64,000 nucleotides of DNA, from positions 1 through 64,000 of the forward strand of contig NZ_BONX01000007.1 of assembly GCF_016862935.1 (NCBI RefSeq), in the 5' to 3' direction. Of this stretch, positions 47,017-63,501 are shown piece after piece. Positions within the stretch are counted from its first letter, which is position 1. Every line of letters starts with the position of its first letter. A program made the position numbers and the translations under genes. The DNA is from Plantactinospora mayteni (GTDB lineage: Bacteria; Actinomycetota; Actinomycetes; Mycobacteriales; Micromonosporaceae). The notes beneath the pieces were generated by a model that was not told the origin of the DNA, ran no database searches, and saw only the letters and a program-made list of their open reading frames with translations.

Positions 47017-47517
47017 TGTCACATTAATCGCCGCACAGTAGTGGTCAACACCCAAAGTTGGGACCGTGAAACTTCAAGCTTGAGGCGGTGAGCTGAAGAG
47101 CAAACTAAAGATCATTATCGAATGAATGCCCGCCACGCTCTGTGCTTGGCGGGCATCTCTCGTTCGGTACAGCGGGGCCGCCACCACAAGGTCTTGGATC
47201 TGCTGAAAGCAGGCGCTTAGTCGCCTCGAAGAACGCGGGGATTCGCGTGGCGCATTAGTCGTTTTCGCTCCCCGGTCACGCCGCCTGCCCGTCGTGTGCG
47301 GTGAGTCTTCCCAGTCCGGCCGAGAACAACCATCCACTGGAGGAATCTTTAGTGTTCTGTTTTGCAGAGAAGAGATTGGCGTGAGTCGTAAGCGACGCAG
47401 CCCGTGTTGCCGCGAAGTGAGTCGACTGCCGCGCCTACCAAAGAAAGGGGAGCTGCGCGATGGGCGCGAGCCTAAAATGCCGTGCGCAGACAACTTCAAC
47501 TAAATGGGGGAATGCTT
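47017..47517. other. Gap before the integrase operon
   Basis: About 500 AT-richer bases without a supported gene. A second hairpin is at 47,126-47,156. A 40-codon frame at 47,381-47,503 (GTG start, basic, VSRKRRSPCC...) is possible but unsupported. The region probably holds the promoter of the integrase operon. Confidence 0.45.
47126..47156 (+). terminator. Perfect 10-bp hairpin
   Basis: ATGCCCGCCA (47126-47135) pairs with TGGCGGGCAT (47147-47156) across an 11-base loop, followed by CTCTCGTTC. It separates the secreted-protein genes from the integrase region. Confidence 0.65.
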
Positions 47518-47742
47518 ATGCCAGAATTTCAACCGGATTTTCCGGATCAGCCCGTCCCGGACTACAATTACGATGGCGATTCGGGAACCACGGATACGGC
47601 ATCGCTGGGCGAACTACGCGTGATCGTTCCGCCGGACCCACCGGAATTCGGACCGGCCGCTGCGCTCGCCCTCCTACGCCTTCTTGTCGCGGTACACCGT
47701 CAACGCAAGGAAATTCCCAACGACCCCATGGAGGAAACATGA
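47518..47742 (+). CDS. Small acidic protein coupled to the integrase
   Basis: ATG 47518 has GGGGGA upstream and gives 74 aa starting PEFQPDFPDQPVPDYNYDGD, strongly acidic in the first half, then hydrophobic helix-like AAALALLRLLVAVHRQRKEI. The stop overlaps the integrase ATG by 4 bases (ATGA). By position it may be a directionality factor or integrase accessory, but it lacks a recognisable DNA-binding motif, so this is only an idea. The coupling itself is read directly from the sequence. Confidence 0.65.
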   Translation: MPEFQPDFPDQPVPDYNYDGDSGTTDTASLGELRVIVPPDPPEFGPAAALALLRLLVAVHRQRKEIPNDPMEET

Positions 47743-49481
47743 CCATAGACGCGGAACGCCTGGGGCGTAACCTCGCGAAGCTCAGCTTCGACGCACCGAA
47801 GCTGAGCTTCGCCTTCTATGGCCGTGTGTCCACCGAGGACAACCAGGACCCAGAGTCGTCGCGGGGCTGGCAAGTTCAGTTGGCCACCAACCTGATCGCG
47901 CCGCGCGGTGGCGTGATCGTCGAACAGTTCTTCGACATCGGACACACCCGGGCACTGCCGTGGCAACGCCGACCCGAAGCGGCCCGTCTACTGGCCGCAC
48001 TGCGTAACCCGCAGCGTGGCTTCACCGCCGTAGTGATCGGCGAGCCGCACCGTGCCTTCTACGGCAACCAGTTCGGCCTCACCGTGCCACTGTTCATCCA
48101 CTACGGCCTCCAACTATGGGTGCCCGAGGTCGGCGGACCGTTCGACCCTGACAACGAAGCCCACGAGTTGATCATGTCGGTCTTCGGCGGGATGAGCAAG
48201 GGCGAACGCAACCGCGTCAAGGTTCGGGTACGTACTGCCATGGCTTCCCAAACGGTGCTGGAAGGCCGTTACCTCGGTGGTCGGCCGCCGTACGGCTACA
48301 TGCTCAAGGACCTCGGCCCGCACCCGAACCCTGCCAAGGCGGCCGAGGGCAAGCGCCTGCACGGGCTGACCCCGGACCCGCAGACCGCACCCGTCGTGCG
48401 GCGGATCTTCGCCATGTACCTGGCTGGCTATGGCCTGTTCGCCATCGCGGAGGCGCTCACCCGCGACGATATCCCGTGCCCGTCCGCGCATGATCGGGCC
48501 CGCAACCGCCACCGTGACGGGCTGGCATGGTCCAAGACCGCGATCCGGGTGATCTTGACGAACCCTCGGTACACCGGCCGGCAGGTCTGGAACAAACAGC
48601 GCACCGACGAGGTGCTGCTCGATGTTGACGATGTCGCCCTCGGTCACATCGCGGTCATGAGGTGGAACGGCCGCGATCAGTGGCTGGTCTCCAAGGACAT
48701 CGTTCATGATCCGCTGGTCGACGAGGCGGACTTCGAGCGTGTCCAGCAGTTGATGACCAGGCGGGCTCGTACGGCTACCGCGCCGAAGCGGGCGCACCGA
48801 TCCCGCCACCCGTACGTCTTCAAGAGCCTGGTCTCGTGTGGCGTTTGCGGGCGGAAGATGCAGGGTCAGCACTCCCACGGCGTCGCCTACTACCGATGCC
48901 GATTCCCGCAGGAGTACGCACTTGCGAACAAGGTCGACCACCCGCGCAACGTGATCATGCGTGAGGAGGCGTTGATCACTCCGTTGGACACCTGGCTGGT
49001 CCAGGAGTTCGGACCACTGCAGCGCCGCCACACCATCGCCAAACTCCTCGACCAACTCGCCCTCGATACACCCGCCGTGGCTTCGGCAACGCCGGTGGGA
49101 CCGACGGTGGCCGACTGTGACGCGAAGCTGGCCCGCTACCGGGCGGCCCTGGAAGCGGGGGCGGACCCAGCCGTGGTCGCCGGATGGATCGCCGAAACCC
49201 AGGCCGAACGGCAGCTCGCCGAGCAACAGGAGCGGGCAGTAACCGCAGTCGGGGTTCCAGACACCACCGGACACCTCACCGAAGAAGAGATCATCGCCAT
49301 CGTCGAGGAACTCGGCGACCTCGTCACCGCTGTGCGAGACGCCGAACCCGAACACAAGATGGAGGTGTACCGCAGCCTCGGGCTGCGTCTGACCTACGAC
49401 CCAGACACGAAAACGGTGCGGGCAGATGTGGATCTTGCCACGCACCGTTGGGATTCGGTTCGTGTCCGAGGGGGGACTTGA
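47739..49481 (+). CDS. Large serine recombinase (integrase of the host element)
   Basis: ATG 47739 has GGAGG upstream and overlaps the previous stop. The 580-aa product has the resolvase catalytic domain (FAFYGRVSTEDNQDPESSRG, nucleophile Ser in GRVSTED at about residue 32). A recombinase domain follows (YLGGRPPYGYMLKDLGPHPN and GLAWSKTAIRVILTNPRYTG), then a zinc ribbon (FKSLVSCGVCGRKMQGQHSH with later YYRCRFPQEY) and a C-terminal coiled coil (AETQAERQLAEQQERAVTAV). It would integrate and, with a directionality factor, excise the whole element. Its last codons (VRVRGGT) lie inside the 3' end of tRNA-Leu, so part of the gene end is probably supplied by the attachment site. The catalytic residues are intact. 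Confidence 0.9.
   Translation: MTIDAERLGRNLAKLSFDAPKLSFAFYGRVSTEDNQDPESSRGWQVQLATNLIAPRGGVIVEQFFDIGHTRALPWQRRPEAARLLAALRNPQRGFTAVVIGEPHRAFYGNQFGLTVPLFIHYGLQLWVPEVGGPFDPDNEAHELIMSVFGGMSKGERNRVKVRVRTAMASQTVLEGRYLGGRPPYGYMLKDLGPHPNPAKAAEGKRLHGLTPDPQTAPVVRRIFAMYLAGYGLFAIAEALTRDDIPCPSAHDRARNRHRDGLAWSKTAIRVILTNPRYTGRQVWNKQRTDEVLLDVDDVALGHIAVMRWNGRDQWLVSKDIVHDPLVDEADFERVQQLMTRRARTATAPKRAHRSRHPYVFKSLVSCGVCGRKMQGQHSHGVAYYRCRFPQEYALANKVDHPRNVIMREEALITPLDTWLVQEFGPLQRRHTIAKLLDQLALDTPAVASATPVGPTVADCDAKLARYRAALEAGADPAVVAGWIAETQAERQLAEQQERAVTAVGVPDTTGHLTEEEIIAIVEELGDLVTAVRDAEPEHKMEVYRSLGLRLTYDPDTKTVRADVDLATHRWDSVRVRGGT
49463..49481. other. Predicted attachment-site end of the host element in tRNA-Leu
   Basis: The integrase gene's last 19 bases coincide with the acceptor and T-arm side of the tRNA 3' end. 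Mobile-element genes lie on the left and chromosomal-type genes on the right, so one attachment site probably lies in the 3' part of this tRNA. The partner site should be a copy of this sequence at the far left end of the element, outside the window. Confidence 0.6.
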
Positions 49482-51218: not shown

Positions 51219-51974
51219 TCAGGTGCCGGCGTCGCCGTCCTGGTCCGGGCGTACGCCGAGTCGGTCGAGAAGGTGCCGGCGCAACGGTCCGAAGCCGGGG
51301 TGGTCGGGGGCACGGGGTCGGCTCAGCGGCACCGGTGCGTCCTCCACGATGCGTCCGTCGTCGAGTACGAGGGTGCGGTCGGCCAGCAGCAGTGCCTCGT
51401 CCACGTCGTGCGTGACCAGCAGGGCGGCGAACCCGTGCTCGGCGTGCAGCCGACCGAACAGGGTCTGCATCTTCAGCCGGGTGAGTGCGTCCAGGGCGCC
51501 GAACGGCTCGTCGAGCAGCATCAGCGCCGGCTCACGGACCAGTGCTCTCGCGAAGGCGACCCGCTGGGCCTGCCCGCCGGAGAGTTCGGCCGGCCACGCC
51601 CGGCCCCGCTCGGCGAGCCCGACCTCGGCGAGCGCGGCGGCGACCCGCTGCCGTACCCCGGCGCCCGGCACGCCGAGTGAGACGTTGTCGGCCACCCGTT
51701 TCCAGGGCAGCAACCGGTGCTCCTGGAAGACCACCGCCTGGCTGCCCGTCCGGGTGATCTCACCGGTTGCCTCGGGGTCGAGCCCGGCCAGGATGCGCAG
51801 CAGGGTGCTCTTGCCGGAGCCGCTGCCGCCGAGCAGCGCCACCACCTCGCCCGGCGCGATGGCGAGGTCGACGCCGTCGAGTACGACGGTCTCGCCGAAC
51901 GCCCGGCGCACCCCGTGCGCGGTGACGACCGGCCGGGTGGCGGTGCTCAGACCGCCTGGAGTCCGCGTCGCCAT
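51219..51974 (-). CDS. ssuB: Sulfonate ABC transporter ATP-binding protein
   Basis: The 251-aa product has Walker A LLGGSGSGKSTLLRILAGLD, Q-loop VVFQEHRLLPWKRVADN, signature AELSGGQAQRVAFARALVRE and Walker B ALMLLDEPFGALDALTRLKM with H-loop VTHDVDEALLLADR. The GxLPW-type Q-loop and short size are typical of the nitrate/sulfonate/taurine (SsuB/TauB) group. It drives import through SsuC of sulfonates bound by SsuA. The start overlaps the end of ssuC by 28 bases. Substrate specificity between aliphatic sulfonates and taurine is not settled by sequence; SsuD nearby favours aliphatic sulfonates. Confidence 0.85.
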   Translation of the reverse strand: MATRTPGGLSTATRPVVTAHGVRRAFGETVVLDGVDLAIAPGEVVALLGGSGSGKSTLLRILAGLDPEATGEITRTGSQAVVFQEHRLLPWKRVADNVSLGVPGAGVRQRVAAALAEVGLAERGRAWPAELSGGQAQRVAFARALVREPALMLLDEPFGALDALTRLKMQTLFGRLHAEHGFAALLVTHDVDEALLLADRTLVLDDGRIVEDAPVPLSRPRAPDHPGFGPLRRHLLDRLGVRPDQDGDAGT

Positions 51975-52789
51975 GTCAGGGTCCTCCGTTCCGCCATCCG
52001 CAGCGCCAGGTCGGAGAGCAGGCCGAGCAGCGCGTAGACGAGCAGGCCGAGCAGGACCACATCGGTCTGGCTGAACTCGCGGGCCTCCATCATCAGGAAG
52101 CCGATCCCGGTCTGCGCGTTCACCTGCTCACCGACCACCAGACTCAGCCAGGCGGCGCCGAGGGCCAACCGTAGGCCGAGGAAGAGCGACGGCAGGGCAC
52201 CCGGGAGTACGACGTGCCGGATCCGGGCCAGTTGGCCGAGTCCACAGGTACGGGCCGCCTCGACCAGGCGTTCGTCGATGTCCCTGATCCCGGCGTACGT
52301 GTTGAAGTAGATCGGGAAGAACGCACCGAGCGCCACCAGCGTGATCTTCAGCGACTCGCCGATGCCGACCCAGATGATCAGCAACGGCACCAGCCCGAGG
52401 TGCGGCAGCATCCGGGCCATCTGCACCGGCGGGTCGACCAGGTCGTCGCCGAGCCGGAGCAGACCGGCGATGGCGCCGAGCACCAGGGCCAGGGTGCCAC
52501 CGATCGCCAGCCCGATGCCGGCCCGGGTCAGCGAGTCGAGCAGGTGTACGCCGAGCGTGCCGTCCCGGGCGAGCCGCCAACCGGTCTGGGCCACGGCGCT
52601 CGGCGCGGAAAGCTTCTCCGGAGGCAGGAGTCCGGTCTGGGACGCCGCCTGCCAGAGCAGCAGGAGCGCGACCGGGGTAACCGCCCGTCGCCAGCGCCGT
52701 ACCGGCCGTCGGGGTGTGTGGCCAGACCGTCGGGTGGCCGCCGGGGCGGCGGGCGGTCGCGTGGGCTTCTCGACGAGAGTCTCCGTCAC
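51947..52789 (-). CDS. ssuC: Sulfonate ABC transporter permease
   Basis: GTG 52789 overlaps the ssuA stop by 4 bases (GTGA) and starts TETLVEKPTRPPAAPAATRR. The 280-aa product has about six TM segments (VTPVALLLLWQAASQTGLLP, IGLAIGGTLALVLGAIAGLL, VVLLGLLVYALLGLLSDLAL). It also has the EAA-like loop with EAARTCGLGQLARIRHVVLP and GALPSLFLGLRLALGAAWLS, characteristic of SsuC/TauC-type permeases. It forms the membrane channel with SsuB. The whole ssuA-ssuC-ssuB order and overlaps indicate one operon on the minus strand. Confidence 0.85.
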   Translation of the reverse strand: MTETLVEKPTRPPAAPAATRRSGHTPRRPVRRWRRAVTPVALLLLWQAASQTGLLPPEKLSAPSAVAQTGWRLARDGTLGVHLLDSLTRAGIGLAIGGTLALVLGAIAGLLRLGDDLVDPPVQMARMLPHLGLVPLLIIWVGIGESLKITLVALGAFFPIYFNTYAGIRDIDERLVEAARTCGLGQLARIRHVVLPGALPSLFLGLRLALGAAWLSLVVGEQVNAQTGIGFLMMEAREFSQTDVVLLGLLVYALLGLLSDLALRMAERRTLTWRRGLQAV

Positions 52790-53904
52790 CGGAACACCTC
52801 GCCGAACCGGTCGTCCACAAGGGAGGCGATGTCGACCGGTTCGGGGATCAGCTCCAGCTTGGTGAAGCCGTCCGCGATCGCCTGTAGCTCGGCGCCGATC
52901 TCGGGGGTCACCGGGGCGAGCGGCCTGGCGCTGCGGGCCAGTGCCCGGGCGGTGGTCGGCTCGTCGATCTTCAGCTCGGGCGCCAGGATCTTCGTCCGCT
53001 GCTCCGGGTTGGCGATGCCCCAGTCGGTGACGCTCCGGTACGTCTCCAGGAACCTCCGGATCTGCTCGGGCTTGCGCTCCAACGCCTCGGGCGAGACGAG
53101 GACGTACTCCCGGTTGCTGGCCAGCCCGGTGGCGTCGGCCAGGATCTTCACCCCGGGCTGCTCGGCCAGCGCGAAGTACGGGTCCCAGATGATCCACGCG
53201 TCGACCTGGTCGTTGTCGAACGCCGGACGCGCCTCGGCCGGCTTGAGGTACTTGACGTTGATGTCGGCGAGCGTCATCTGGTGCGCTTCCAGGAGCTTCA
53301 CCAGCAGCCAGTTGACGTTCGACCCCTTGTTCAGGGCCACCGTCTTCCCCTTCAGGTCGGCGAAGCTGCGGAAGCCCCTGGCCTCCTTGACCAACACCGC
53401 CTCGCCCTGCGGCACCGGCTCCGACGTACCGATGATCCGGAACTTGATTTTGCCGGCCGCGGCGAAGACCGGCGGCGCCTCGCCGACCTGGCCGATGTCG
53501 ATCGCGCCCGCCTTGAGCGCCTCGGTCAGCGCCGGTCCACTCTCGAACAGCGACCATTTCGCGTCCGGGGCCTCGCCGCGGGCCTTCACCAGGCTCAGCC
53601 CGCCGAACCGCTGGTAGCCGACGAGCAACTCGCCGGAGTCCGCGCCGGCGCTGTCGTCGCCGCATCCGGCGATCGCCCCGATCCCCGCCAGGACCACGGC
53701 GAGCAGGCCGGCGAGGCGGATATGTCGTCGCCGGCCGGAACGGATCGGCCCGGTCGGCCGGCGGCGACCACCCTCGGCGGACCGGCCACCACCGTCCAGG
53801 GGTTGGCAAACGGCGTCGTCGGGTCGGCAAACGGCGTCGTCGGATCGGCGAGCGGCGTCGTCGGGTCGGCGACGGCGGGGAGGGCTGAGGGTGTGGTGGG
53901 ACAT
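52786..53904 (-). CDS. ssuA: Sulfonate ABC transporter substrate-binding lipoprotein
   Basis: ATG 53904 has AGGAG at good spacing. The 372-aa product has an unusual 60-residue Arg/Asp-rich N-terminal extension (with three 7-residue repeats such as DDAVCRP) before the signal sequence (IRLAGLLAVVLAGIGAIAGC, lipobox GAIAGC). The mature SsuA-like fold includes LLVGYQRFGGLSLVKARGEA, FESGPALTEALKAGAIDIGQ, KTVALNKGSNVNWLLVKLLE and VDAWIIWDPYFALAEQPG. It captures sulfonates for SsuCB. The extension is encoded by tandem 21-bp repeats at 53,805-53,867, so a shorter functional start downstream is possible. The family is sure. Confidence 0.85.
   Translation of the reverse strand: MSHHTLSPPRRRRPDDAARRSDDAVCRPDDAVCQPLDGGGRSAEGGRRRPTGPIRSGRRRHIRLAGLLAVVLAGIGAIAGCGDDSAGADSGELLVGYQRFGGLSLVKARGEAPDAKWSLFESGPALTEALKAGAIDIGQVGEAPPVFAAAGKIKFRIIGTSEPVPQGEAVLVKEARGFRSFADLKGKTVALNKGSNVNWLLVKLLEAHQMTLADINVKYLKPAEARPAFDNDQVDAWIIWDPYFALAEQPGVKILADATGLASNREYVLVSPEALERKPEQIRRFLETYRSVTDWGIANPEQRTKILAPELKIDEPTTARALARSARPLAPVTPEIGAELQAIADGFTKLELIPEPVDIASLVDDRFGEVFR
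53805..53867. repeat. Three 21-bp tandem repeats in the 5' end of ssuA
   Basis: Units begin GGCAAACGGCGTCGTC (twice) and GGCGAGCGGCGTCGTC (third), each 21 bp, at 53,805, 53,826 and 53,847. They encode near-identical 7-residue repeats in the N-terminal extension of SsuA. Confidence 0.85.
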
Positions 53905-54402: not shown

Positions 54403-55590
54403 ATGACGCTCACCTTCCACTGGTTCCTGCCGACCTACGGCGACAGCCGGGACATCGTCGGCGGCGGGCACGGGCTGCCGGCGGGTACCGCCGGAGGTGC
54501 CCGGCCGGCCACCGTGGCGTACCTCGGGCAGATCGCCCGGACCGCCGAACAGCTCGGCTTCGTCGGCGCGCTCACCCCCACCGGTGCCTGGTGCGAGGAC
54601 GCCTGGCTGGCCACCGCGATGCTCACCGAGGTCACCGAGCGGCTGAAGTTCCTGGTGGCGTTCCGACCCGGACTGACCTCGCCGACCCTGGCCGCCCAGA
54701 TGGCCTCGACCTTCCAGCGGCTCTCCCAGGGACGCCTGCTGCTCAACGTGGTCACCGGCGGGGAGTCGCACGAGCAGCGCGGCTACGGCGACTTCCTCGA
54801 CAAGGACGCCCGGTACGCGCGTACCGACGAGTTCCTGCACGTCGTACGGGCGCTGTGGCGGGGGGAGACGGTCAGCCACACCGGGGAGCACCTGCGGGTC
54901 GAGCAGGCCCGGCTGAACCGGCTGCCCGACCCCGTCCCGCCGATCTACTTCGGTGGCTCCTCCAAGGCGGCCGGCCCGGTGGCGGTACGGCACAGCGACG
55001 TGTACCTGACCTGGGGCGAGCCGCCCGCGCAGGTGGCCGAGAAACTGGCCTGGATCAGGGGGCTGGCCGCCGAGGCGGGTCGGGAACTCCGGTTCGGGAT
55101 CCGGCTGCACGTCATCGCGCGGGACACCACCGAGGCGGCCTGGGCGCAGGCGCAGCGGCTGCTCGACGGCATCGCCGACTCCGACGTCACGGCCGTCCAG
55201 GCCGGACTGGGGCGCAGCGAGTCCGAGGGGCAGCGCCGGATGCTCGCCCTGCACGGTGGTTCCCGGGATCGGCTGGAGGTGTCGCCGAACCTCTGGGCCG
55301 GGGTCGGGCTGGTGCGCGGCGGCGCGGGTACGGCACTGGTCGGCAGCCACACCGAGGTGGCCGACCGGATCGCCGAGTACCACGCCCTCGGCATCACCGA
55401 GTTCATCCTCTCCGGACATCCGCACCTGGAGGAGGCGTACTGGGTCGGCGAGGGTGTGCTGCCGATCCTGCGCCGCCGCGGGCTGTGGCGGCACCCGGTC
55501 GGCGAGGCGTCGGCACCGGTTGCCGAGGTGCCGTTCGCCGCCTCGACGCCGAACGGCACCGCCGGCACCCCGGGTGGCGCCGCCCGGTGA
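54403..55590 (+). CDS. ssuD: FMNH2-dependent alkanesulfonate monooxygenase
   Basis: The 395-aa product is a luciferase-like TIM barrel close to SsuD length. It has TFHWFLPTYGDSRDIVGGGH, a strong SsuD-type start, GALTPTGAWCEDAWLATAML, LKFLVAFRPGLTSPTLAAQM, LLLNVVTGGESHEQRGYGDF and IYFGGSSKAAGPVAVRHSDV. It cleaves the C-S bond of alkanesulfonates to aldehyde and sulfite using FMNH2 from the reductase at 50,380. ATG 54403 has GGAGAG upstream. The C-terminal 30 residues are a strain-type extension rich in Ala/Gly/Pro. It diverges from ssuA, sharing its promoter region. Confidence 0.85.
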   Translation: MTLTFHWFLPTYGDSRDIVGGGHGLPAGTAGGARPATVAYLGQIARTAEQLGFVGALTPTGAWCEDAWLATAMLTEVTERLKFLVAFRPGLTSPTLAAQMASTFQRLSQGRLLLNVVTGGESHEQRGYGDFLDKDARYARTDEFLHVVRALWRGETVSHTGEHLRVEQARLNRLPDPVPPIYFGGSSKAAGPVAVRHSDVYLTWGEPPAQVAEKLAWIRGLAAEAGRELRFGIRLHVIARDTTEAAWAQAQRLLDGIADSDVTAVQAGLGRSESEGQRRMLALHGGSRDRLEVSPNLWAGVGLVRGGAGTALVGSHTEVADRIAEYHALGITEFILSGHPHLEEAYWVGEGVLPILRRRGLWRHPVGEASAPVAEVPFAASTPNGTAGTPGGAAR

Positions 55591-56015
55591 CCGCTCGGTG
55601 GCCGGGGGCCGGGCCGGTGTCCCGAGCCGGGGGCGAAGAAGGGCTGCGACCACGGCCAGTGCGGTGGCCGGCGGGTTTCGCTCGTCGCGGTGTGCGGCCG
55701 GTGGGGATCCGGTGGGGATCCGGCGGGACAGTTCGGTGACCGGGGAGGGGCGCCGGGCGGTAGCCGGACAGGCCCCGCGACGTTCCCGCCGTCGGTGCCG
55801 CCATTTCGGAAAACCGTTCCGCGACCTATCCCGGCACCGCCGGCCCGGTGGGCTCTCCGGCATCTATCGGTACGCCCCGGCGCGGCCGAGATTGTTGACA
55901 ATGTTATTGGCAATAGTGTTGCCCGCACCTATGATCGGTCTGCCTCCGACAAGCATCGCGGCTTCCGCCCGGGGCGTACCGACGCACTCGCGGAACCGCT
56001 CGGAAAGGATTGTCG
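55591..56015. other. Gap between ssuD and the catabolic cluster
   Basis: No supported gene. The first 270 bases are GC-rich and degenerate. From 55,885 there is an AT-rich island with palindromes and a perfect TTGACA, probably the promoter of the downstream cluster. Confidence 0.55.
55891..55914. promoter_or_regulatory. Palindromic operator candidate upstream of galB-like gene
   Basis: ATTGTTGACAAT (55891-55902) is a 5-2-5 palindrome that includes TTGACA, and ATTGGCAAT (55906-55914) is a 4-1-4 palindrome. They are isolated in an AT-rich island 100 bases before the GalB-like start. A GntR-, LacI- or TetR-type regulator may bind here. Confidence 0.55.
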
Positions 56016-56750
56016 ATGACAGCGTCCCCGATCGGGCGAGGTCCGATCCTCGTGGTAAGCGCGCACGCCGCCGACTTTGTCTGGCGCGCGGGTGGCGCCA
56101 TCGCGCTCGGCGCATCCCGGGGCCAGCAGGTCCACGTGCTGTGCCTCACCTTCGGCGAGAAGGGCGAATCGCAGGGGCTGTGGAAGCAGCCCGGGATGAC
56201 CCTGGAGCGGGTCAAGGAGGCGAGACGCGACGAGGCGAGCCGGGCGGCGAAGGTGCTCGGCGCCGAGATCGAGTTCCTCGACGCCGGGGACTACCCGCTG
56301 CGGGCCACGGACGACCTCTACGACAGCGTCGTCTCGACCATCCGCCGGATCGACCCGGCCGTGATCGTCACCCATCCGGCCAAGGACCCGTACAACCTGG
56401 ACCACTCGCTGACCCACGAGATCGTGCTCCGGGCCCGGATGGTGGCCCAGGCGGCCGGGCACGACCGGGACACCCGACCGATCGGCGCGCCGAACGTGTT
56501 GCAGTTCGAGCCGCACCAGCCCGAGCAGTGCGGCTTCCTGCCGAACCTGCTGCTGGACATCACCCCGGTCTTCGACCGAAAGGTCGAGGCGATGCGGATC
56601 ATGGGAGCCCAGGGCCACCTGGTCGCGTACTACACGGATCTCGGCGTACGGCGCGGGGTGCAGGCCGTCCGCAACGGTGGCGACCGGTCGATCAGCCACG
56701 CCGAGGCGTACCAGCGGGTCTTCCCGGTGGTCGGCGGAGAGCTGCTGTGA
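56016..56750 (+). CDS. PIG-L family protein, 4-oxalomesaconate hydratase-like (GalB type)
   Basis: ATG 56016 has GGAAAGG upstream. The 244-aa product has the LmbE/PIG-L fold with ILVVSAHAADFVWRAGGAIA, the metal-binding HAAD in place of HPDD, GAEIEFLDAGDYPLRATDDL and IVTHPAKDPYNLDHSLTHEI with later zinc ligands HxxD/H. GalB-type enzymes hydrate 4-oxalomesaconate to 4-carboxy-4-hydroxy-2-oxoadipate in the gallate/protocatechuate 4,5-cleavage pathway. The next gene encodes an aldolase of the kind that acts on that product, which supports this over a deacetylase. GTG of the aldolase overlaps the stop by 4 bases. Upstream palindromes suggest regulated expression. Confidence 0.7.
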   Translation: MTASPIGRGPILVVSAHAADFVWRAGGAIALGASRGQQVHVLCLTFGEKGESQGLWKQPGMTLERVKEARRDEASRAAKVLGAEIEFLDAGDYPLRATDDLYDSVVSTIRRIDPAVIVTHPAKDPYNLDHSLTHEIVLRARMVAQAAGHDRDTRPIGAPNVLQFEPHQPEQCGFLPNLLLDITPVFDRKVEAMRIMGAQGHLVAYYTDLGVRRGVQAVRNGGDRSISHAEAYQRVFPVVGGELL

Positions 56751-57541
56751 CCGGCCACGTCATCGTCCGGACCGACGCCGCCCCGCCGGCCGACGCCGTC
56801 GCGCAGTTCGCCCGGCAGGGCGTGTCGACGGTGCACGAGGCGCAGGGCCGCACCGGCCTGCTGGGGCACCTGCTCCGGCCGATCTACCCGGGGGCCCGGA
56901 TCGCCGGCCGGGCGGTCACCGTCTCCGCCCAGCCGGGCGACAACCTGATGATCCACGCGGCGGTGGAGCAGACCCGGCCCGGCGACGTACTCGTGGTCGG
57001 CTTCACCTCGCCCAGCACGGACGGCGCCTTCGGCGAACTGCTGGCCACCTCGCTGCGGGCCCGTGGCGTCCTCGGTCTCGTCATCGACGCCGGCTGCCGG
57101 GACGTGGCCGCGCTGACCGAACTGGGCTTCCCGGTCTGGTCCCGGGCGGTCTCGGCGCAGGGCACGGTGAAGGCCAGCCCGGGCTCGGTGAACGTCCCGA
57201 TCGTGCTCGGCGGTGCCTACGTCCGTCCCGGCGACGCGATCGTGGCCGACGACGACGGGGTCGTGGTGGTGCCGCGTGAGCGGGCCCGGGAGGTCGCCGC
57301 GGCCGGGGCCGAGCGCGAGGCGAAGGAGGAGGAGAAGCGCCGCCAACTCGCCGACGGCGTGCTCGGACTGGACATGTACCAGCTCCGCCCGCTGCTGGAC
57401 CGGCTTGGCGTCCGGTACGTCGACGCCACCGACCAGGGCGCCGTGCCGACCACCACCGTGCCGACCACCACCACCGCCGCCGGTCCGACCACTGCCGCCG
57501 ACCCGGCCACGGCCGGAGCCGGCTCCACCGGCCCGGCCTGA
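56747..57541 (+). CDS. 4-carboxy-4-hydroxy-2-oxoadipate aldolase / RraA-like protein
   Basis: GTG 56747 overlaps the previous stop (GTGA). The 264-aa product starts TGHVIVRTDAAPPADAVAQF and has the RraA-like fold: GVSTVHEAQGRTGLLGHLLR, AVTVSAQPGDNLMIHAAVEQ, LVIDAGCRDVAALTELGFPV with DAGCRD as the metal/catalytic motif, and IVADDDGVVVVPRERAREVA. CHA aldolases of this family split the GalB product to pyruvate and oxaloacetate. A repeat-rich Thr/Pro tail (TTTVPTTTTAAGPTTAADPA) of about 30 residues is an extension not usual for the family. With GalB it forms a convincing pathway pair; the RraA family has other roles too. Confidence 0.75.
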   Translation: MTGHVIVRTDAAPPADAVAQFARQGVSTVHEAQGRTGLLGHLLRPIYPGARIAGRAVTVSAQPGDNLMIHAAVEQTRPGDVLVVGFTSPSTDGAFGELLATSLRARGVLGLVIDAGCRDVAALTELGFPVWSRAVSAQGTVKASPGSVNVPIVLGGAYVRPGDAIVADDDGVVVVPRERAREVAAAGAEREAKEEEKRRQLADGVLGLDMYQLRPLLDRLGVRYVDATDQGAVPTTTVPTTTTAAGPTTAADPATAGAGSTGPA

Positions 57542-57691: not shown

Positions 57692-58012
57692 ATGGAGTTT
57701 CTGGTACGACAGCTCAACCGGATGCCGGCGGACGAGGAGTCCCGCCGGCTCCGCGAGGAACTGCGGCCCCGCGAGCGACAGGTCGCGCGGCAACTGCGGG
57801 ACGCGGGCATCCTGCGCCGGCTGTGGCGGGTGCCGGGCACCCAGCACGCGATCGGGCTGTACGAGGCCGAGGACGCCACCGTGTTGCACGACGCGCTCTC
57901 GTCGCTGCCGATGTTCCCGTGGTTGGAGATCGAGATCCAGCCGCTGGCGGTGCACCCGCAGGAGCGCGGGGCGCCACCCGGGCCGGCCGCCGGCTCCGGC
58001 ACGGCGGGATAG
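57692..58012 (+). CDS. Muconolactone delta-isomerase-like protein
   Basis: ATG 57692 has GAGGAGGCC upstream. The 106-aa product starts EFLVRQLNRMPADEESRRLR and has the small ferredoxin-like fold with the sequence pattern of CatC: helix EELRPRERQVARQLRDAGIL, strand RRLWRVPGTQHAIGLYEAED, and ALSSLPMFPWLEIEIQPLAV, in which LPMFPW is a hallmark of muconolactone isomerases. CatC isomerises muconolactone in the beta-ketoadipate pathway, but no CatA/CatB is here, so a different lactone substrate in this cluster is likely. The Gly/Pro-rich tail is unstructured. Confidence 0.75.
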   Translation: MEFLVRQLNRMPADEESRRLREELRPRERQVARQLRDAGILRRLWRVPGTQHAIGLYEAEDATVLHDALSSLPMFPWLEIEIQPLAVHPQERGAPPGPAAGSGTAG

Positions 58013-58242: not shown

Positions 58243-58779
58243 ATGGCATTCGAACCACTGATCGATCCGACCGGTAACGGCGATCTCACCTCGAACACCA
58301 CTCTGGCGCCCCGGCCGGGAACATTACGCGGCCGTACTCTCGGCCTGTTGAACAATACGAAGCCGAATGCGGCGGTCCTGCTCCAGGAAGTCGGCGAACA
58401 ACTCAAGCGCGGATACGGCGTACGCGAGGTAATTCTCTACACCAAGCCCTATTTCGGTACGCCGGTCGAGCAGACCCAGGTCGAGCGGATCGTGCAGGAG
58501 TGTGATTTCGCCGTCGCGGCGGTCGGCGATTGAGGCTCGTGCAGCGCGGCCAGTCTGGCCGACGGAGTTCTGCTCGAACGTGCCGGGATCCCGGCGGTGA
58601 GCGTCTGCACCGACGCCTTCCGGGTGCCCGCCGACGCGATGGCCAGGGCGCTCGGGTTCCCCGGCTTCGAGTACGTGACCGTTCCGCATCCGGTGGCCAG
58701 CCTGACGCTGCCCGAGGTACAGGAGAGGGTTCGAGAGATGATGCCCCGGCTGCTGCGGATCCTGGGAGTGGAGCAGTGA
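58243..58779 (+). CDS. UGSC-family selenoprotein (in-frame UGA)
   Basis: ATG 58243 starts AFEPLIDPTGNGDLTSNTTL; the frame reaches VQECDFAVAAVGD, then TGA at 58,531-58,533, and continues without a break as GSCSAASLADGVLLERAGIP to TGA at 58,779. UGA read as selenocysteine gives the family hallmark U-G-S-C and a 178-aa protein of normal family length. A SECIS-like hairpin lies directly downstream. The sequence after the UGA keeps strong coding bias (TDAFRVPADAMARALGFPGF). Function of UGSC proteins is not established; a redox role is likely. The downstream start is coupled by GTGA. If the host lacks selenocysteine machinery, this would be a nonsense mutation instead. Confidence 0.85.
58534..58561 (+). 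promoter_or_regulatory. SECIS-like hairpin after UGA
   Basis: Thirteen bases after the UGA, CGGCC (58547-58551) and GGCCG (58557-58561) pair around the loop AGTCT, which has the G-T (G-U) in the apex. This is close to the bacterial SECIS layout of fdhF, where the stem starts 11 bases after UGA with GU in the loop. Confidence 0.7.
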
Positions 58780-59954
58780 CCACCGCCGCTGCCCGCCAGG
58801 TGGCGGACCCGAACCGGGTGGCGGAGCCGGCGCGGATGGCGGATCCGGCCGGAGTGGGAGTGGCGGATCCGGAGCCGGCGGCGGAGGTGCCGAACGCGTT
58901 CGACCCGGTCTCGGCGCGGCAGGTGATCGAGCACTACTACGACCAGGGCTGGACCGACGGGCTGCCGGTGGTGCCCTGCTCGGAAAGCCTGCTCGCCGAG
59001 TTCCTCGCCCAGGTGGACGCCGACCCGGACGAGACCGTCTTCGCGATGCCGCACCTCAACCGGACCTGCTCGGTACGGCTCGCCGCGGTCAACGCCGCGA
59101 TGGCCGGCTGCCGCCCGGAGTACTTCCCGGTGGTGCTGGCGGCCTGGGCGGCGCTGACCGAGGAGGGGTACGCCGGCAGGGGCATCTGGCAGAGCACCAC
59201 CGGCAACGGCACCATGCTGGTGGTGAACGGACCGGCCCGGGAGCGGCTCGGCATCAACAGCCGGGGCAACATCTTCGGCTCCGGCTTCCGGGCGAACGCG
59301 ACGATCGGTCGGGCCATCCGGCTGACCGCGATCAACGCCTTCGGGCTCCGCCCGCACGTCCTCGACCAGGCCACCCAGGGGACCCCGGCGAAGTACACCT
59401 GCTGCATTGCGGAGAACGAGGAGGAGAGCCCCTGGCCGGCGCTGCCCGCCGAACTCGGCTTCCCGGCCGGGGAGAGCACGGTGACCGCGATGATGACCCG
59501 CTCGGTGGTGCACATCGAGGCCCGGCACACGATCGAGGCGGACCAGTTGCTGAACGACCTCGCCAACACGGTGGCCCGGACCGGCGCGCTGGTGCACGAG
59601 ACGATCAGCGCCTGCGTCGTACTGGGGCCGGAGCACGCGCACCTGCTGGCCCGGACCGGTCTGTCCAAAGCGGACGTACGCCGGGCGCTCTTCGGCCGGG
59701 CGGTGCACAGCCGGGCGTCGCTGGACGCGGTCGGCAAGGGCGCGGTCTCCCGGAACACCCGCTGGCGGATTCCCCGGGACCACCCGGACGCGGTACTGGA
59801 CGGCGAGACGGACCAGGTCCGGGTGCTCAACTCCCCGGACGCGGTGCTGGTCGTCGTCGCCGGTGCCTCCAACGCGGGCGTCTCGGCGGTGGCCGAGACG
59901 TTCGGACCCCGCGGTGGTCGCCCGGCCACCGCCCGAGTGAAGGATGCGCGATGA
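58776..59954 (+). CDS. Conserved UGSC-associated protein (392 aa)
   Basis: GTG 58776 overlaps the UGSC stop by 4 bases. The product begins with a low-complexity stretch (VADPNRVAEPARMADPAGVG) of about 40 residues, then a conserved domain with YDQGWTDGLPVVPCSESLLA, FAMPHLNRTCSVRLAAVNAA, MAGCRPEYFPVVLAAWAALT, NSRGNIFGSGFRANATIGRA and PAKYTCCIAENEEESPW. The GWTDGLPVVP start and the MAGCRPE and CIAENEE blocks mark a family that in my recollection is often encoded beside, or fused to, UGSC domains. The conserved cysteines could take part in redox chemistry with the selenoprotein. Its activity is unknown. The next gene overlaps by 4 bases. Confidence 0.75.
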   Translation: MTTAAARQVADPNRVAEPARMADPAGVGVADPEPAAEVPNAFDPVSARQVIEHYYDQGWTDGLPVVPCSESLLAEFLAQVDADPDETVFAMPHLNRTCSVRLAAVNAAMAGCRPEYFPVVLAAWAALTEEGYAGRGIWQSTTGNGTMLVVNGPARERLGINSRGNIFGSGFRANATIGRAIRLTAINAFGLRPHVLDQATQGTPAKYTCCIAENEEESPWPALPAELGFPAGESTVTAMMTRSVVHIEARHTIEADQLLNDLANTVARTGALVHETISACVVLGPEHAHLLARTGLSKADVRRALFGRAVHSRASLDAVGKGAVSRNTRWRIPRDHPDAVLDGETDQVRVLNSPDAVLVVVAGASNAGVSAVAETFGPRGGRPATARVKDAR

Positions 59955-60259: not shown

Positions 60260-61798
60260 ATGGCAATCCGAGAGTCCCAGATCAGCGAACCGGCCCGCGC
60301 CACCCCGGTACGCGGCGAGTACGACGTGGTGGTGGTCGGCGGTGGTCCGGCCGGGTTGATGGCCGCCGCGGCGGCGGCCCGGACTGGCCGCTCGACGATC
60401 CTGCTGGAGCGGTACGGCTTCCTCGGCGGGGCCGGCACGATGGGTGGACTGAGCACCTTCTGCGGGCTGCACGCCCGGGTGCACGGCGAGCACCGCCGGG
60501 TGGTCCGGGGACTCACCGACGAACTGCTGGACCGGCTGGCGCGGATGGACGGGCTGAACGCCCCGCACCTCTCCGTCGCCGACCGGATCATGGCGCAGGC
60601 GTTCGACATCTCGGCGTACAAGATGGCCGCCGACGACCTCGTACTGGCCGGCGGCGGCAAGCTGCTCTTCCACGCGATGGCGGTCGGGGTGTCGATGGCC
60701 GACCCGACCGAGATCGACGCGGTGATCGTCGAGTCGAAGTCCGGCCGCAGCGCCATCCGGGGGCGGGTCTTCGTCGACGCCTCCGGCGACGGCGACCTCG
60801 CGGCCTGGGCCGGAGCGCCGTACGAGGTCTCGCCGAAGCTGCTCTATCCGTCGCTGATGTTCCGGATCAACGGGGTGGATCCGGGCCGGGCCGGCGAGGC
60901 GTGGAAGACCGTCGCCCGGCTGATGGACGAGGCGGAACGGGCCGGTACGCACCGCTTCCCGCGTAAGAAGCCGATCGTGCGGCCGCAGCGTAACCCGCTG
61001 GAGTGGCGGGCCAACCTGACCCAGTTGAGCAATCCGGACGGCAGCGCGGTGGACGGCACCGACGTCGACGGGCTGACCCACGGCGAGATCCAGGGCCGCC
61101 GGCAGGTACGGGACGCCTTCGCCTTCATCCGCGAGCACACCCCCGGCTTCGAGGACTCGTACGTCGTCGACCTCTCGCCGCAGATCGGCATCCGGGAGAC
61201 CCGGCGGATCGTCGGCCCGTACCAGCTCACCGAGGACGACATCCTGGACTGCGTCGACTTCCCGGACACCATCGGGGTGAACGGCTGGCCGGTGGAGGCA
61301 CACGTCGCCGGGGACGTCGAGTTCCGGTTCCCCCGCGCCGACCTGGCGTCCCGCGGGTTCAACCAGCTCCCGTACCGGATGATGCTGCCGCAGGTGGTGC
61401 AGAACCTCCTCGTGGCCGGCCGGTGCGCCTCGATGACCCAGCGTGGCCAGTCCTCGGCCCGGGTCACCGGGCCGTGCTTCGCGATGGGTCAGGCCGCCGG
61501 CACCGCCGCCGACCTCGCCCTCTCGGCCGGGGTCCCGCTGCGCGACGTCGACGTGGCGACGCTGCGCGAGCGGCTGGCCGACGACGGCGCCTACCTCGGC
61601 ACCGACCTCCCGCCGGACCGGGACACCGCAGCCGGCACCGACCTCCCGCCGGACCGGGGCATTGCGGCCGGCACCGATCTGCCACCGGACCGGGTCGCCG
61701 CGGCCGGCATCGACGGCGGGCTGGGCCGGGATTTCATGCCCGGCGCCGACGGCGGGCCGGAGGTCGCCCGGACCGGCGGTACGGGGCAGCGCCGATGA
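60260..61798 (+). CDS. FAD-dependent oxidoreductase
   Basis: ATG 60260 starts AIRESQISEPARATPVRGEY and the 512-aa product has the Rossmann motif DVVVVGGGPAGLMAAAAAAR (about residue 23), ILLERYGFLGGAGTMGGLST, a typical FAD_oxidored-family block, and RVFVDASGDGDLAAWAGAPY as the second FAD contact. Later are QIGIRETRRIVGPYQLTEDD and LLVAGRCASMTQRGQSSARV. The last 50 residues contain three 12-residue repeats (GTDLPPDRxxAA). This family includes enzymes with dicarboxylate-like substrates; the substrate here is unknown. The stop overlaps the IlvD-like ATG by 4 bases, so it is coupled to the dehydratase. Confidence 0.8.
   Translation: MAIRESQISEPARATPVRGEYDVVVVGGGPAGLMAAAAAARTGRSTILLERYGFLGGAGTMGGLSTFCGLHARVHGEHRRVVRGLTDELLDRLARMDGLNAPHLSVADRIMAQAFDISAYKMAADDLVLAGGGKLLFHAMAVGVSMADPTEIDAVIVESKSGRSAIRGRVFVDASGDGDLAAWAGAPYEVSPKLLYPSLMFRINGVDPGRAGEAWKTVARLMDEAERAGTHRFPRKKPIVRPQRNPLEWRANLTQLSNPDGSAVDGTDVDGLTHGEIQGRRQVRDAFAFIREHTPGFEDSYVVDLSPQIGIRETRRIVGPYQLTEDDILDCVDFPDTIGVNGWPVEAHVAGDVEFRFPRADLASRGFNQLPYRMMLPQVVQNLLVAGRCASMTQRGQSSARVTGPCFAMGQAAGTAADLALSAGVPLRDVDVATLRERLADDGAYLGTDLPPDRDTAAGTDLPPDRGIAAGTDLPPDRVAAAGIDGGLGRDFMPGADGGPEVARTGGTGQRR
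61598..61705 (+). repeat. Three 36-bp tandem repeats at the 3' end of the FAD oxidoreductase gene
   Basis: Units at 61,598, 61,634 and 61,670 begin GGCACCGACCTCCCGCCG (third: GGCACCGATCTGCCACCG) and encode GTDLPPDR followed by four variable residues. They extend the C-terminus beyond the usual family end. Confidence 0.85.
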
Positions 61799-63501
61799 GC
61801 CGGCCGCTGCGCAGCAACTTCGAGCCGGGTACCACCCGGTGGGCGATGCGCCGGGCCCAGTGGCGGGCGATGGGGCTGAGCGCCGAGGACGAGGTCAAGC
61901 CGAAGATCGCGATCGTGAACAGCTCGTCCGGGCTGGCGAGCTGCTTCAGCCACCTGGACGGCATCGTCGCACCGCTCAAGGCGGCGATCAGGTCGGCCGG
62001 CGGGGTGCCGTTCGAGGTACGCACCGCCGCACCGAGCGACGCGATCACCAGCGCGGGCCGGGCCGGCCAGTACATCCTGCCCAGCCGGGACCTGGTGGTG
62101 CACGACATCGAGGTGGCGGTCGAGGGGGCCCAGCTCGACGGCATGGTCTGCCTCGCCTCCTGCGACAAGACCGCGCCCGCACACCTGATGGCCGCCGCCC
62201 GGCTCGACCTGCCGACCATCGTGCTGGCCTGTGGCTACCAGGCGACCGGCCGCTATCGGGGCGAACACGTCGACTTCGAGGACATCTTCCTGCGGGCCGG
62301 GCACGTCGCCAGCGGCCGGCTCACCGTCGCCGAACTCGGCGAGATGAGTGAGTGCGCGATCGGCGGCCCCGGGGTCTGCGCCGGGATGGGTACCGCCAAC
62401 TCGATGCACATCGCCTGCGAGGCGCTCGGGATGGCGATGGCCGGCAGCACCCCGGTACGGGCCAACGGCGACCGGATGTGGCGGGCGGTGCAGGCGGCCG
62501 GTACCCGGATCGTGGAGCTGGTCACCGAGGACGTCCGGCCGAGGCAGATCCTCACCCCGGACGCGTTCCGCAACGCGGTGACCGCGATCCTGGCGGTCAG
62601 CGGTTCGGTCAACTGCCTCAAGCATCTCCAGGCGGTCGCCGTGGAGGCCGGCCGCGACGTCGACATCTGGCGCCTCTTCGAGGAACTGGCCGGCGACGTA
62701 CCGCTGCTGACCGGGGTCAAGCCGAACGGCGACCGGCACGTCGACGAGTTCGAGGACGCGGGCGGCACCCCGGCGCTGCTGAAGCAGCTCGCGCCGCTGC
62801 TCCGGCTGGACGCGCCCACCGTCACCGGGCCCCGGCTCGGCGAACTGCTGTCGGACGTGCGGGTGGCCGACCCCGAGGTGATCCGCCCACTGGAGGACCC
62901 GCTGGCCCGGCATCCGGCCATCGTCGTGGTCCGCGGCTCGCTGGCGCCGGACGGAGCGATCATCAAGCGTACGGTCGCCGACGACGCCCCGCTGCGGTTC
63001 CGGGGCCCGGCCCGGGTCTTCACCTCCCGCGAGGAGGGACTGACCGCGATCCGGCGCGGCGACGTACGCCGGGGCGAGGTACTGGTGCTGCGCGGGCTCG
63101 GCCTGCGCGGCTCGCCCGGGATGGGGCTGACCTCCGCCTTCGTCTTCGCGCTGGACGGCGCTGGCCTCGGCGAACACGTTGCCGTGATCACCGACGGGCA
63201 GCTCTCCGGCCTGGTCAACAAGGGGCTGGTGGTCGGCGAGGTGGCGCCGGAGGCGGCGACCGGCGGCCCGTTGGGGCTGGTCGAGGAGGGCGACGAGATC
63301 CTGGTCGACGTACCGGAGCGCCGCGTCGACCTGCTGGTGGACGAGAAGATCCTCGCCGCGCGCCGAGATCGACTCCCGCCACTCGTCCCGGCCGTCGGCT
63401 GCGGCTGGCTCGACGTGTACGCCCGCGAGGTCGGCCCGCTGACCGAGGGCGCCACCCTCGGCGGCCGGCCACCGCAAGCGACCGCCGACAGCGGTGGCTG
63501 A
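61795..63501 (+). CDS. IlvD/Edd family dehydratase
   Basis: ATG 61795 overlaps the oxidoreductase stop by 4 bases (ATGA). The 568-aa product has the IlvD/Edd pattern: NSSSGLASCFSHLDGIVAPL, PSRDLVVHDIEVAVEGAQLD, VCLASCDKTAPAHLMAAARL with the CDK cysteine, SECAIGGPGVCAGMGTANSM with the second cluster cysteine, and later RGSLAPDGAIIKRTVADDAP and AVITDGQLSGLVNKGLVVGE. The family binds a [2Fe-2S] or [4Fe-4S] cluster and dehydrates dihydroxy acids or sugar acids. Here the context (no valine genes) favours a sugar- or hydroxy-acid dehydratase rather than the branched-chain enzyme. Conserved cluster cysteines are present. Confidence 0.85.
   Translation: MSRPLRSNFEPGTTRWAMRRAQWRAMGLSAEDEVKPKIAIVNSSSGLASCFSHLDGIVAPLKAAIRSAGGVPFEVRTAAPSDAITSAGRAGQYILPSRDLVVHDIEVAVEGAQLDGMVCLASCDKTAPAHLMAAARLDLPTIVLACGYQATGRYRGEHVDFEDIFLRAGHVASGRLTVAELGEMSECAIGGPGVCAGMGTANSMHIACEALGMAMAGSTPVRANGDRMWRAVQAAGTRIVELVTEDVRPRQILTPDAFRNAVTAILAVSGSVNCLKHLQAVAVEAGRDVDIWRLFEELAGDVPLLTGVKPNGDRHVDEFEDAGGTPALLKQLAPLLRLDAPTVTGPRLGELLSDVRVADPEVIRPLEDPLARHPAIVVVRGSLAPDGAIIKRTVADDAPLRFRGPARVFTSREEGLTAIRRGDVRRGEVLVLRGLGLRGSPGMGLTSAFVFALDGAGLGEHVAVITDGQLSGLVNKGLVVGEVAPEAATGGPLGLVEEGDEILVDVPERRVDLLVDEKILAARRDRLPPLVPAVGCGWLDVYAREVGPLTEGATLGGRPPQATADSGG

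Follow-up and report, generated by a model that had tools for sequence, protein, structure and literature searches.

The 64,000-nucleotide stretch of DNA analysed here (the window) carries a gene of the UGSC family, and the explanation that best covers the observations as a whole, one that we hold with considerable confidence from sequence comparison, is that this gene encodes a selenoprotein in which a hairpin directs selenocysteine to residue 97 (Sec97) and which would be made together with two downstream proteins: X391, a protein of no described family, and an 83-residue CxxC protein (Table 1). The family itself, UAG-reading members included, is already published, and the window gene is a further member. 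In the part of a 2008 Global Ocean Sampling paper seen here, the family is named as one of the major bacterial selenoproteins found in ocean samples (PMC2398784), and a 2026 review, as excerpted, places it among families whose functions are largely uncharacterised (PMC13188914), in agreement with the earlier statement, made in a sequence-only reading of the same DNA, that its function is open.

Table 1. Features of the UGSC locus, with coordinates in the window
Feature	Coordinates	Strand	Basis
Sulfonate-type ABC transporter	51219..53904	-	Binding protein by TIGR01728; permease and ATPase read from sequence
SsuA-like binding protein of the transporter	52786..53904	-	TIGR01728, over cut-off
Luciferase-like monooxygenase near alkanesulfonate type	54403..55590	+	NF001939, E 1.9e-144, below cut-off
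PIG-L family protein	56010..56750	+	PF02585, E 2e-26
4-Carboxy-4-hydroxy-2-oxoadipate aldolase (LigK/GalC type)	56747..57541	+	NF006731 and TIGR02798, both over curated cut-offs
Muconolactone isomerase-like protein	57692..58012	+	PF02426, E 3.1e-25
UGSC selenoprotein gene (predicted), 178 residues, Sec97	58243..58779 (stop codon included)	+	PF24696, NF041046
In-frame TGA, predicted Sec codon (U97 of U-G-S-C)	58531..58533	+	Translation, homologue codons
Putative SECIS hairpin CGGCC-AGTCT-GGCCG	58547..58561	+	Conservation in recoded genes, bSECIS model
X391, partner protein of no described family	58776..59954	+	Start overlaps UGSC stop (GTGA)
CxxC protein, 83 residues	59951..60202	+	Start overlaps X391 stop (ATGA)
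FAD-dependent oxidoreductase	60260..61798	+	PF12831, E 2.4e-111
IlvD-type dehydratase	61795..63501	+	NF002068, E 1.3e-146, below curated cut-off

Results

The UGSC reading frame continues through an in-frame TGA

The frame runs from the ATG at 58243 to the stop codon TGA at 58777-58779 and yields 178 residues when its sole internal stop, the TGA at codon 97, is translated as U; under the ordinary code, with no recoding, it stops after 96 residues. Translation thus bears out the claim of the sequence-only reading that the frame is continuous on both sides of TGA 58,531, and profile searches bear out its assignment of the U-G-S-C motif to the UGSC family: the protein matches PF24696 over residues 6-175 of 178 (E 8.1e-64; 215.3 bits against a cut-off of 25) and the NCBI model NF041046, "UGSC family (seleno)protein", with 164 bits (E 2.3e-48), above the curated cut-off of 125. 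With described members of the family it shares the full-length match over cut-off, the motif (G-D-U-G-S-C-S, with GDUGSC at residues 95-100) and a TGA accompanied by a SECIS, and we find no difference in the protein itself. Since NF041046 exists, automatic annotation could keep the gene whole, contrary to the split in two that had been expected.

The codon at the Sec position was compared across the family by a scan of one genome per species, 84,980 species in all, from which the best 80 of 340 related loci were kept. Among these best 80, the codon is TGA in 40, TAG in five, TGC in 34 and TGT in one; that is, it is recoded in 45 and a Cys codon in 35, and all 80 show the stop or Cys codon that the family pattern [UC]-G-S-C calls for. 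The sequence-only reading had proposed a comparison with Cys homologues; their occurrence in 35 of the 80 loci means that the UGSC reaction does not depend on selenium. The five TAG genes belong to Geodermatophilus (four) and Blastococcus (one); they are loci L041, L042, L044, L045 and L049, each with the codon near position 10289 and each with the same hairpin as the window gene. At 60-68% identity they are among its closest homologues in the best 80 of 340, and X391 adjoins there too; the difference is that they use TAG where the window gene uses TGA. Use of UAG for selenocysteine in Geodermatophilaceae, with a CUA tRNA-Sec and in UGSC selenoproteins, is on record in the passages available to us (PMC5330540).

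Within the window's taxonomic family, UGSC matches occur in 14 of 300 genomes, 13 of them over the cut-off, and a TGA lies inside UGSC in four of the 300, in six genes. A set of 20 UGSC proteins from that taxonomic family (set A1) includes six with TGA; of the other 14, one (L023) has Ser at the Sec position and the rest have Cys. On another contig, the window's own genome (assembly of 9.84 Mb, 99.97% complete) has a further UGSC gene, likewise interrupted by an in-frame TGA and 71% identical to the first; this locus (L012, G000:C3:280000-299000) has UGSC on the minus strand, around 9672-10190. A further locus in the same genus (L034, G092:C8:11432-11596) is a decayed fragment that resembles the first UGSC paralogue and matches profile positions 2-56 alone.

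Comparison of the window gene with its orthologue in genome G058 (locus L018) gives dN/dS of 0.063 before the TGA and 0.148 after it. The values indicate that purifying selection on the gene persists downstream of the TGA. The corresponding dS values are 0.70 and 0.27; the lower value after the TGA is what additional constraint on the RNA would be expected to produce, although a single pair cannot show such constraint.

A hairpin with an invariant AGT codon marks the recoded genes

Exactly 13 bases (58534-58546) separate the TGA from a hairpin composed of CGGCC (58547-58551), the loop AGTCT (58552-58556) and GGCCG (58557-58561), corresponding exactly to the 5-bp perfect stem with AGUCU loop, thirteen bases downstream, that the sequence-only reading had put forward as a SECIS. 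According to the bSECIS model, as given in the excerpted part of the 2026 review, a bacterial SECIS has a loop of 3-9 nt with a G within its first two positions, an upper stem of 4-16 bp, a distance of 16-37 nt from the UGA and a minimum free energy of at most -7.5 kcal/mol (PMC13188914). The hairpin falls within every one of these bounds: the loop AGUCU has 5 nt, with G and U as its second and third bases, the stem has 5 bp, the distance from the UGA is 18 nt, and a 60-nt stretch containing the hairpin folds at -23.1 kcal/mol. Folded alone, that stretch has no extra stability over its dinucleotide shuffles (z -0.13; 81 of 200 equally good), and an Rfam search gave no SECIS family match at the hairpin; its lone row is a SECIS_3 entry at a different place (58700-58780), with 15.9 bits where the gathering score is 63. 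Because shuffles are as stable and Rfam has no match there, the single sequence proves little.

Comparison across the family is more telling. We assembled 50 recoded genes, comprising the 45 recoded loci of the scan together with the window gene, L002, L018, L029 and L030; L019 duplicates L043 and was not counted. All 50 have AGT (Ser) as codon 7 behind the recoded stop, whereas elsewhere in 45 of these genes (the window gene and 44 scan loci, L100 being omitted) AGT supplies 16 of 400 Ser codons. In the 35 Cys genes the same codon specifies Thr (28), Ala (6) or Ser as TCG (1), and AGT in none. The 5-bp stem is complete in all 50 recoded genes, with the loop AGTNT: 48 have CGGCC/GGCCG, one has CCGCC/GGCGG and one has CAGCC/GGCTG, the last two (L054 and L120) amounting to two compensatory changes, both at one stem pair. 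A covariation test on 18 of the 50 sequences, chosen by us, found 90 of 90 cells paired and one pair with two compensatory changes; 1 of 500 shuffles reached its score, and 48 of 500 had as many pairs with both bases altered. Four of the five stem pairs are invariant and are therefore uninformative on pairing.

The SECIS of Escherichia coli fdhF has a small apical loop with G-U soon after the UGA. The window hairpin resembles it in all of these respects, namely the small loop, the G-U and the position close behind the UGA; it differs in that a single 5-bp stem is the part kept across the UGSC family. The 50-gene comparison argues that the element is a SECIS, as had been proposed, and offers a clean actinomycete example, marked by a rare Ser codon and two compensatory changes.

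The genome encodes the complete selenocysteine machinery

The Sec-decoding trait is complete in the window's genome. A selA gene scores over the cut-off and is adjoined by selB (306.8 bits against a cut-off of 242) and selD (393 against 125), and selC is represented by a tRNA-Sec with anticodon tca (UCA) that scores 74.6 bits, over the gathering score. The four genes whose joint absence had been named beforehand as a ground against selenocysteine are all present. In three same-genus genomes with a TGA-containing UGSC gene, selA matches have E-values from 2.1e-116 to 1.5e-119; in the fourth genome with such a gene, which is 80% complete, the selA match is weak (1.3e-12). The trait is ordinary in the window's taxonomic family, because selA scores over the cut-off in 209 of its 300 genomes, a frequency at odds with the earlier remark that selenoproteins are uncommon in actinomycetes. 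Matches to the formate dehydrogenase alpha subunit in the window's genome have no in-frame stop in any of eight places (one of them G000 C2:257114-259135), and formate dehydrogenase, the usual Sec enzyme in bacteria, therefore does not seem to use Sec here. The Sec users that we found in this genome are the two UGSC genes.

We asked how selB is distributed in 50 of the 80 genomes, again our choice, of which 24 have recoded and 26 have Cys UGSC genes. A best selB-profile match of 215 bits or more occurs in all 24 recoded genomes and in nine of the 26 with Cys genes (Fisher p 3.5e-7, a value that overstates the case because the genomes are related to each other). The 215-bit line was set by us at a gap in the best matches, from 202 to 223 bits, below which matches resemble EF-Tu; at the official cut-off of 242.25 bits, single matches are found in 19 of 24 recoded and 5 of 26 Cys genomes, and, with neighbouring matches in one frame added, the tally is 25 of 50 genomes. 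The results indicate that the recoded codon and selB-like genes go together.

These observations bear on two readings in which no selenium is involved. On the first, the gene is dead or of the Cys type and owes its TGA to a nonsense mutation or a sequencing error. That would account for a frame broken under the ordinary code and would fit the 35 of 80 loci that have Cys at this codon. We give it next to no chance, because a TGA stands in both UGSC genes of this genome, in two more same-genus genomes and in 40 of 80 loci altogether, purifying selection persists downstream of it, the AGT hairpin is present in all 50 recoded genes and in none of the 35 Cys genes, and the genome has all four Sec genes. 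The second, that the UGA encodes another amino acid or is a regulated stop yielding a 96-residue product, draws on the Ser of the distant member L023 and on the competition of UGA recoding with release factor; we judge it highly improbable in view of the Cys codon in 35 of 35 unrecoded scan loci and the selB-like genes in 24 of 24 recoded genomes tested, and also of the Geodermatophilaceae, in which, from the record available to us, the codon (TAG) and the tRNA-Sec anticodon (CUA) changed together (PMC5330540). We conclude that the window gene is, by every comparison made at the level of sequence, a genuine selenoprotein gene, and that the earlier reading of its TGA as selenocysteine is supported by homologue codons, AGT hairpin and Sec genes alike.

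X391 is a near-constant, overlapping partner

The UGSC stop codon and the X391 start codon overlap in GTGA (58776-58779), and the X391 stop codon and the start codon of the CxxC protein overlap in ATGA (59951-59954). Among the best 80 of 340 loci, 75 have X391 immediately behind UGSC; of the other five, two end at that point and three (L080, L088 and L120) are without X391. L080 and L088 (10001-10525) are Microbacterium strains with a Cys-form UGSC and no X391 directly downstream. Two loci contain two UGSC-X391 pairs each (L085, 10001-12900; L115, 736-11583). A frame related to the CxxC protein is present in 26 of 80 loci, and in L117 it is fused to X391. Of nine homologues of the CxxC protein, one matched NifU (E 0.0013) below the cut-off, a weak resemblance that was rejected. 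Fusion of UGSC with a domain termed "Unknown_1" was described in 2008, in the part of that paper seen (PMC2398784); the passages on the UGSC family retrieved from the literature contain no naming of its partner genes.

Pfam and NCBIfam searches with 36 X391 proteins returned no credible family, the matches being scattered, none of them shared by more than two members and the best at E 0.003, and a sequence search of PDB chains with X391 gave no match. Profile comparison by hhalign showed no similarity of X391 to GrdB (E 0.54) or to UGSC (E 0.24). Among the 36 proteins, C71 is invariant and C169 is conserved at 90% or more, with no other conserved Cys. The predicted model of X391 (pLDDT 92.1) has its best fold matches, weak ones with Z at most 6.5, in class I fumarase and cyclic amide hydrolases, the best Foldseek match being a chain of the two-subunit fumarase of Methanocaldococcus jannaschii (7xky_A; E 3.5e-4; Z 6.5 over 172 residues; TM 0.27).

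The fumarase match, together with IlvD and AcnX dehydratases among the neighbours, would fit a UGSC-X391 pair acting as a hydro-lyase or other non-redox enzyme, with X391 as a distant class I fumarase-like subunit. A TM of 0.27 and a Z below 8 are in the range reached by models without clear matches, and X391 has two conserved Cys, against the three Cys of the fumarase Fe-S cluster; we regard this reading as quite unlikely.

UGSC is a likely remote relative of the Sec domain of GrdB and PrdB

The predicted model of UGSC (pLDDT 89.6) repeats strand-helix five times, with Sec97 directly before the third helix, residues 98-113. A sequence search of solved structures with UGSC gave five matches, all at E 0.26 or worse, and the 50 matches listed by Foldseek and VIA-align are general alpha/beta folds, with no thioredoxin seen among them, a result that excludes nothing.

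For the GrdB side we read nine GrdB-like genes of the window's phylum past their PF07355 match. Each has a TGA in U-G-T-G-T, followed by "...LER.GIPT"; UGSC has U-G-S-C-S followed by "...LLERAGIPA", so that U-G-[ST] stands in register and the helix ends alike in "LER.GIP". The third residue after U is Gly in the nine GrdB-like proteins (U-G-T-G) and Cys in UGSC, giving U-x-x-C. In hhalign comparisons (E-values for one pair), merged and trimmed alignments, with the GrdB side kept from 110 residues before the motif, gave E 3.9e-6, probability 87 and score 43.8, with the motif in register, whereas the controls scored no higher than 20.7 (200 column-shuffled copies) and 20.2 (reversed copy). The result depends on the alignment, the probability being 11-67 in other set-ups against 87 in the best: merged but untrimmed alignments gave E 5.1e-5 (probability 67), smaller ones E 0.0004 and 0.00035 (probability 35 and 37), and comparison of UGSC with two shorter PF07355-like proteins E 0.0027 (probability 11). 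Those two proteins, from other genomes of the phylum (L131, 68-799; L132, 1501-2217), match the C-terminal part of PF07355 alone and carry an in-frame TGA in U-P-V-C or U-L-T-C; they possibly represent a further selenoprotein group between GrdB and UGSC.

GrdB and PrdB, the Sec-bearing subunit B of glycine, betaine and D-proline reductases, differ from UGSC in architecture: their Sec domain stands after a PF07355 part of roughly 345 residues, and UGSC is without such a part. PF07355 has no match at E up to 10 in 42 UGSC proteins (set A3) and none in the window's genome, and X391, which adjoins UGSC, is dissimilar to GrdB. Remote homology of UGSC with the Sec domain of GrdB and PrdB is, on these profile comparisons, likely but unproven; the passages found in the literature by keyword contain no statement of kinship between UGSC and the glycine, betaine or proline reductases.

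The 2008 paper, in the part seen, guessed at a thioredoxin-like fold for UGSC (PMC2398784). According to that hypothesis, to which the U-x-x-C motif lends itself, the protein would be a thiol oxidoreductase with a general redox role instead of a catabolic one. The predicted model has strand-helix five times with the Sec motif before the third helix, an order unlike that of strands and helices in thioredoxin, and the profile link is to GrdB and PrdB; we consider a thioredoxin-like protein unlikely.

Neighbouring genes point to carbon catabolism

A relative of the FAD oxidoreductase at E < 1e-20 is present in 37 of 80 UGSC loci, an IlvD relative in 29 and AcnX in 15. At the second locus of the window's genome, L012, UGSC and X391 are accompanied by AcnX, IlvD, an FAD oxidoreductase, several dehydrogenase genes and a Rieske oxygenase of VanA-like type. 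Relatives of LigB or LigM, comprising LigM- or LigB-like demethylases and extradiol dioxygenases, occur in eight of 80 loci from three groups of organisms, the names LigM and DesA resting on matches below NCBIfam cut-offs. In the window, the LigK-type aldolase adjoins a PIG-L protein that we take to be of the same family as the hydratase GalB. Together, the LigB and LigM relatives, the window's LigK and PIG-L proteins and the VanA-like protein of L012 tie UGSC weakly to lignin-type aromatics. The neighbours as a whole point to carbon catabolism; the aldolase, the dehydratases and the LigM-/LigB-like proteins suggest plant-derived acids as the type of substrate, and the monooxygenases nearby suggest aerobic life. 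At 47460-49481 the window has a frame that, judged by eye, resembles a large serine recombinase; a mobile element may therefore border the cluster.

Discussion

We propose that, with the ribosome at UGA 58531, SelB with its Sec-tRNA(UCA) would recognise the hairpin (58547-58561) and that Sec97 would thereby be inserted. UGSC, X391 and the CxxC protein would be made together through their overlapping stop and start codons. With Sec97 just before a helix in the predicted model, Sec97 and Cys100 would form a U-x-x-C pair.

For the chemistry our proposal is tentative, and we put it somewhat short of an even chance: UGSC would be a free-standing relative of the GrdB-type Sec domain, performing a reductive step on an acid bound by X391 in a catabolic route. 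In GrdB, nucleophilic attack by Sec on a polarised C-N or C-F bond has been proposed, according to the excerpt available (PMC10838667). By analogy, X391 would bind a small organic acid, and UGSC would attack or reduce a polarised carbon-heteroatom bond of that substrate; Cys100 would then close a Se-S bond, which cellular thiols, perhaps via the CxxC protein, would reduce again. The FAD oxidoreductase and the IlvD-type dehydratase encoded nearby would act in the same catabolic route as this step.

It counts against the proposal that GrdB systems are known from anaerobes, whereas the monooxygenases near UGSC suggest aerobic life. In a more specific and more doubtful form of the proposal, UGSC, X391 and the CxxC protein may constitute a new actinomycete selenoenzyme, a stripped-down GrdB/PrdB Sec domain with a different substrate-binding subunit, presumably aerobic, that would reductively cleave a carbon-heteroatom bond of plant-derived organic or methoxylated aromatic acids. 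What makes the locus of interest is its X391 partner gene and the link to GrdB; the literature passages retrieved state neither. A constant overlapping partner of no described family, together with a likely tie to GrdB and PrdB, would turn the function of the UGSC family into a set of testable questions.
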